Shown here: positions 16,773 through 16,962 of the stretch, piece after piece | How the letters are laid out: every line of letters starts with the position of its first letter | Numbering within the stretch: position 1 is the stretch's first letter | Source: a bacterium | GTDB lineage: Bacteria > SZUA-79 > Acidulodesulfobacterales > Acidulodesulfobacteraceae | Assembly: GCA_021777135.1 (NCBI GenBank) | Contig: JAJYDX010000001.1 | Span: forward strand, 186,001-250,000 | Reading direction: 5' to 3' | DNA: 64,000 nucleotides | Notes under the pieces: generated by a model | Databases searched by the model: none | What the model saw: only the letters and a program-made list of their open reading frames with translations | Told to the model about the DNA's origin: nothing | Translations under genes and position numbers: made by a program

Positions 16773-16790
16773 TTGGCACAACAATTGCTA
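16773..16790 (+). promoter_or_regulatory. Sigma-54 promoter upstream of nifH
   Basis: TTGGCAC-AACAA-TTGCTA; GG/GC spacing 12 bp (GG 16775-6, GC 16787-8). Confidence 0.9.
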
Positions 16791-16849
16791 TTAATATCAA
16801 TATGGAATGGGAAAATTGAATGCTTTAAATAAAACAAATATATTCTAAT

Positions 16850-16886
16850 AAAGCACGATTGGGTGTTTTTGGCAACGGCGCCATAA
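16850..16886 (+). promoter_or_regulatory. Tandem hexaloop hairpins in nifH leader (candidate ANTAR target)
   Basis: P1 AAAGCAC[GATTGG]GTGTTTT and P2 TGGC[AACGGC]GCCA. The P2 loop has A1 and G4. The P2 3' arm overlaps the terminator 5' arm. Confidence 0.4.
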
Positions 16887-16930
16887 TTTAGAGGGATAAA
16901 TCTACCCCCTTAAATTATGGCGCTTTTTAT
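16878..16930 (+). terminator. Terminator/attenuator-like hairpin in nifH 5' leader
   Basis: GCGCCATAATTTA…TAAATTATGGCGC (13-bp perfect core plus a GGG/CCC extension) followed by TTTTTATTTT, 30-40 nt before the nifH ATG. Confidence 0.75.
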
Positions 16931-16962
16931 TTTAAAAATAATTTTTTGGAGGTAAAAAGAAA

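Follow-up and report, generated by a model that had tools for sequence, protein, structure and literature searches.

The nifH leader in the 64,000-nucleotide stretch of DNA analysed here (hereafter the window) is in all likelihood an ANTAR-type antitermination switch worked by a receiver+ANTAR protein that the same operon encodes, and the production of nitrogenase would very probably be gated by it a second time after transcription has started. Regulation of nif is commonly taught as NifA and sigma-54 acting at initiation, complemented by post-translational control, while ANTAR domains are known as transcription antiterminators. An earlier note on this DNA had seen the hairpin in the leader and proposed it as a candidate attenuator; it had missed the remaining anatomy of the switch, namely the ANTAR gene, two hexaloop hairpins and a second sigma-54 promoter. 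The proposal of attenuation is now strongly supported because the leader can adopt covarying, mutually exclusive folds, the element is conserved in 15 relatives, an ANTAR gene resides in the same operon, and gene and element are jointly absent from a sister genus.

A post-initiation gate on nif genes in an uncultured lineage (probably deltaproteobacteria of acid mine drainage) would extend the idea behind the Geobacter regulator GnfR to another lineage, and the contrast in presence and absence between sister genera makes the role of the gate testable. The putative RNA target, a variant with U in its first hexaloop, bears on how ANTAR domains choose their RNA, and the compact genetic module could be used to turn engineered nif systems on and off. 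The genomes of the lineage have a low GC content, and a deltaproteobacterial 16S probe site is present in some relatives; expression of nifDKH has been reported for Candidatus Acidulodesulfobacterales (PMC6776010), the group to which the bacterium may belong.

A strong predicted terminator lies between the sigma-54 promoter and nifH

The nif operon occupies the forward strand and runs, as assigned with NCBIfam and Pfam, from nifH (start 16963) through a nifB-like gene, a methyltransferase gene, a ferredoxin gene, nifD, nifK, nifE and nifN to nifX (16963–25920), an order that is the same in relatives. The receiver+ANTAR gene comes next and is followed on its 3' side by nifI1 and nifI2 (26604–27361), whose products are P-II proteins according to Pfam. 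The equivalog cut-offs are exceeded for nifH (TIGR01287), nifD, nifK, nifN and nifX, and the scores of nifB and nifE fall slightly under their own.

Upstream of nifH, the sigma-54 (-24/-12) promoter TGGCACAACAATTGC (16774–16788) matches TGGCAC-N5-TTGC and places the predicted start at ~16800, bearing out the promoter and start site originally suggested. Exact matches of this kind are expected by chance 0.07 times per strand per 64 kb, rpoN was found in the genome, and a sigma-54 site lies 5' of nifH in all the family leaders examined, whether the switch is present or absent; no NifA-type TGT-N10-ACA site is conserved 5' of nifH.

The leader that follows contains an intrinsic terminator (16878–16933) with a perfect, GC-capped stem of 13 bp, in which GCGCCATAATTTA (16878–16890) pairs with TAAATTATGGCGC (16911–16923), and a T tract, TTTTTATTTT (16924–16933). 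From the hairpin it is 39 nt to the ATG of nifH, whose ribosome-binding site GGAGG is found at 16948–16952. The perfect 13-bp hairpin, its T tract, its distance from the start codon (earlier put at ~30–40 nt) and the lack of any other ORF between promoter and hairpin all agree with the first description. Only its account of a ~160-nt leader with the hairpin after it needs amendment: the total leader length, ~163 nt, is right, but the terminator stem already begins ~78 nt past the predicted start.

A custom scan of both strands of the 64 kb for perfect stems of 10 bp or longer, with a loop of at most 25 and a T-rich tail, found no other T-tailed stem that reaches 13 bp; order-1 random sequence submitted to the same scan gave no hit at all, and the nifH leader hairpin is not expected by chance. 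Another terminator scan misses it because loops are limited there to at most 8 nt. Nor is it the terminator of the upstream gene (16140–16535), since that gene lies divergently on the opposite strand. The other strong hairpin on the forward strand (59553–59586) is the 12-bp terminator of a SAM riboswitch (RF00162, 96.5 bits, 59432–59536) and provides an internal positive control for the scan; this riboswitch, which precedes a threonine-synthase-like ORF (59539–60870 as called, with the true start probably further downstream), was the only match in the window in a search with the curated Rfam families, none of which matched the nifH leader. A perfect AT-rich inverted repeat of 15 bp (10387–10419), which lacks a T tract on the forward strand, was also observed between divergent genes; it is possibly an operator.

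Two conserved hexaloop hairpins precede and overlap the terminator

Comparison of the nifH leaders of relatives, which had been suggested as a check, showed the hairpin to be conserved in 15 leaders from genomes of the same family, and these were aligned over 70 columns by a script that took the P2 core as its anchor and omitted the terminator loop, which varies. In every one of them two further hairpins with six-base loops, P1 and then P2, stand in fixed register 5' of the terminator hairpin, P1 being of the type AAGCGC (AAATGG) GCGCTT and P2 of the type GCGGC (AACGAC) GCCGC, with the loops in brackets. P1 of the window (16851–16868), which falls in a gap-free part of the alignment, has the stem arms AAGCAC and GTGTTT around the hexaloop GATTGG (16857–16862), and P2 (16870–16883), the proposed antiterminator, has the arms TGGC and GCCA around AACGGC (16874–16879). 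The P2 loop carries G at position 4 in 15/15 leaders and A at position 1 in 10 of them (G in the others), and the loop of the window has both A1 and G4; in the P1 loop, position 4 is U throughout and position 1 is A in 13/15, the window having G. A linker of ~2–3 nt separates the two hairpins, counted between 4-bp stems, and the spacing is constant in all 15. The leaders share 80% identity in the P1-P2 block and 37% in the 60 nt before it.

Base pairing in these helices is maintained through sequence change. Across the 15 leaders, the P1 helix is 96.7% paired and the P2 helix 97.3%, each with two pairs that have changed on both sides; taken together, 97.0% of cells are paired with four such pairs, and sliding the partners by 1–3 columns reduces pairing to 28–46%. 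The terminator helix is 95.6% paired, with six pairs changed on both sides. The 3' arm of P2 (16880–16883) falls inside the 5' arm of the terminator (16878–16890), and in two sets of columns (22/35/54 and 21/36/53) the 5' arm of P2, the shared arm and the 3' arm of the terminator change together. On the strength of this three-strand covariation, the element appears to have retained the capacity for two mutually exclusive folds, P2 or the terminator, which is what one would expect of an ANTAR antiterminator switch. A point against this reading is that the window itself has the weakest P2, at -5.2 kcal/mol.

A first rival sees in the hairpin a partial terminator that works constitutively, or a 5' structure that stabilises the mRNA; in either case it would change the amount of nifH mRNA by a fixed factor with no regulator involved. 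Terminators are rarely 100% efficient, 5' hairpins can stabilise mRNA or remain from processing, and the terminator alone is far more stable than P2. We nevertheless consider this explanation improbable, as it leaves unexplained the conserved hexaloops of P1 and P2, the three-way covariation and, across the family, the joint presence and absence of hairpin and ANTAR gene described below.

The operon encodes an ANTAR response regulator behind a second sigma-54 promoter

The proposed antiterminator protein is a receiver+ANTAR response regulator (25971–26576, forward strand) recognised by Pfam as Response_reg (2.7e-22) and ANTAR (1.7e-16), the latter with 60.2 bits against a cut-off of 27.3. Its gene, between nifX and nifI1 in the nif operon, is the one ANTAR gene of the genome. 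The best relative in the PDB is EutV (6wsh/6ww6, E=1.5e-25), and the acid pocket of the receiver (D17, D18, D61, T88 and K115) does not vary among ten aligned members of the family.

Directly 5' of the ANTAR gene lies a second sigma-54 promoter, TGGCACAAACCTTGC (25943–25957, forward strand). This internal site is present at 14 of 15 ANTAR loci, and the fifteenth has a one-base variant; its distance to the ANTAR ATG is usually 28 nt, with 33 nt in two loci, 78 nt in one and 87 nt in another. Transcription is predicted to begin no more than ~2 nt from the ATG, with no recognisable Shine-Dalgarno sequence in front of it, so the mRNA from the internal promoter, a predicted ANTAR-nifI1-nifI2 transcript, is probably leaderless. 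With a sigma-54 promoter of its own, the ANTAR gene could therefore be expressed while the nifH terminator is closed.

Regulator gene and leader element are present or absent together

A covariance model of P1 and P2 found one strong site per switch-bearing genome, with scores of 46.8–65.7 bits for the same sequences that had trained the model, and all other matches in the 98 genomes stayed at or below 28 bits. In the genome of the window, the target motif occurs once, in the nifH leader. Two of the strongest matches outside the family (loci L092 and L095) read as coding sequence and were taken as chance.

In the sister genus, g2, nifH is present and the nif genes follow the same order, but nifX and nifI1 are not separated by an ANTAR gene; the g2 operons examined also lack a consensus sigma-54 site between these two genes, and the g2 nifH leaders show no comparable hairpin with a T tract. 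Leader hairpin energies range from 0 to -8.4 kcal/mol in g2, versus -27.6 to -39.8 kcal/mol where the switch is present. Within the family, the ANTAR gene, its promoter and the leader switch are thus present together or absent together, with the exceptions of genomes G002 and G026, whose contigs stop before the ANTAR position, and of G005 and G003, which have no assembled nifH leader. One ANTAR-bearing contig of 3.1 kb (C145, locus L030) in the g2 bin G029 was set aside as a likely contaminant of the bin because it matches the sequence of G014, a member of genus g1, at 98.5% identity over 2.3 kb. In the NifH tree, g2 forms one clade adjoining the switch-bearing G020, and the contrast in co-occurrence therefore amounts to a single evolutionary event, most simply a joint loss of the ANTAR gene and the switch.

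A second rival accepts antitermination and dispenses with the ANTAR protein: P1 and P2 would sense a ligand, as a riboswitch, or bind some other protein. We regard this as highly improbable. It could appeal to the departure of P1 from the canonical ANTAR loop, and to the existence of unknown riboswitches in spite of the lack of an Rfam match. However, two hexaloop hairpins, the second of which overlaps a terminator, are the very architecture of ANTAR targets (PMC3369931, PMC8934654), and the genome's single ANTAR gene belongs to this operon and is missing where the element is missing. That the leader is instead a stand-alone regulatory RNA (a terminated sRNA of ~130 nt, possibly an ANTAR sponge), with nifH read mainly from another start, is scarcely credible: terminated leaders can act in trans and an ANTAR-sequestering RNA is known (EutX/Rli55; PMC8934654), but no second motif target for which a sponge would matter was found in the genome, and the stretch from hairpin to ATG, mostly A/T, offers little room for a promoter.

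Beyond the family, a search that included 385 relatives found the closest receiver+ANTAR proteins of other phyla to be 30–42% identical, with no nitrogenase genes beside them in the 20 surroundings inspected. In several genomes of another phylum, the genes for the closest receiver+ANTAR proteins lie 2–4 kb from P-II genes (loci L205, L209, L210 and L212–L214), a proximity that suggests ANTAR control of other nitrogen genes there.

Relation to known ANTAR systems

The closest precedent is GnfR (GSU2822) of Geobacter sulfurreducens, for which Ueki and Lovley reportedly described in 2010 a two-component antitermination of nif genes. GnfR is said to be an ANTAR response regulator that would relieve termination at some of the nif operons, namely ones with terminators in their leaders; these operons reportedly start at activator-dependent promoters, and the master activator is said to turn on the GnfR gene as well. 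Given this precedent, nitrogen fixation under ANTAR control is no novelty, and attenuation is less foreign to nif control than was assumed at the outset. The likeness to the present system (an ANTAR regulator, terminators in nif leaders and activator-dependent promoters) is drawn from the description of GnfR. In contrast to GnfR, the regulator gene here sits inside the nif operon that it would control, flanked by nifX and nifI1 and preceded by a sigma-54 promoter of its own; there is one target in the genome, and the lineage is different. GSU2822 is listed as gnfR (PMC7962754), and Geobacter is cited among the ANTAR systems linked to nitrogen use (PMC8164766).

The molecular parallel is with EutV and the eut leader of Enterococcus faecalis, for which the structure of the protein has been solved with a hexaloop RNA target (PMC8934654; 6wsh, 6ww6). 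Both systems pair a receiver+ANTAR protein with two hexaloop hairpins, of which the second, with A1 and G4 in its loop, shares an arm with the terminator. On alignment to 6wsh, four of the seven RNA-contact positions of EutV are kept: K143, K147, M172 and N173 correspond to K154, K158, M183 and N184 here, whereas R168, R175 and R177 are replaced by Q179, G186 and P188. Characterised ANTAR targets have A1 and G4 in both loops, and the eut linker measures 5–12 nt (PMC3369931); the P1 loop here has U4 instead of G and the linker is shorter, which makes this leader a variant, and not a plain member, of the dual-hexaloop ANTAR definition. By analogy the variant should still work as an ANTAR switch, since an ANTAR protein can bind a single hexaloop (PMC8934654). 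The two systems further differ in the genes they serve, nitrogenase here and not ethanolamine use, and in that no kinase gene accompanies the ANTAR gene here.

NasR/nasF of Klebsiella, NasT of Azotobacter and AmiR/amiE of Pseudomonas likewise rely on ANTAR antitermination in leaders of nitrogen-acquisition genes, with other sensors (nitrate, amides) and other target genes (PMC3369931; PMC12316311). With NifA/NifI control of nif the present operon shares its sigma-54 promoter and the nifI1 and nifI2 genes, although the ANTAR layer would act after initiation; no protein reached the NifA equivalog cut-off, the best scoring 367 bits versus 529.

A possible two-input gate

Based on these observations, we propose a working model for the ANTAR switch. 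Sigma-54 polymerase would start at ~16800 and, by default, the terminator (16878–16923) would fold and transcription would halt before nifH. When active, presumably as a phosphorylated dimer, the ANTAR protein would bind the P1 and P2 hexaloops as they emerge, and the 3' arm of the bound P2 would be withheld from the terminator, allowing polymerase to enter nifHBDKENX. A single sigma-54 activator would most likely fire both the nifH and the ANTAR promoters, and the circuit would then behave as a coherent feed-forward (AND) gate that needs the sigma-54 activator for both promoters and the ANTAR signal for read-through, with read-through into the ANTAR gene adding positive feedback. The ANTAR protein would be activated by a kinase, and the signal is probably nitrogen or redox status. 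Termination, read-through, binding of the RNA by the ANTAR protein, its phosphorylation by a kinase and the nature of the signal are steps that we infer from sequence features. As for the wider reading of the module as a self-contained AND gate encoded by the operon, with a leaderless ANTAR promoter, a variant target (RANU in P1, RANG in P2, compact linker) and loss or gain as a unit, we see the chances as evenly balanced.

The genome encodes 18 HATPase proteins, none of them inside the window. HisKA_2 was absent from all 15 of these that were scanned, and no ANTAR partner was assigned for that reason. PAS-type kinases occur at loci L140 (G000, contig C31) and L141 (G000, contig C69), two with C-terminal receivers, and the one on C69 adjoins a sigma-54 activator; they are possible partners of either the nif activator or the ANTAR protein.
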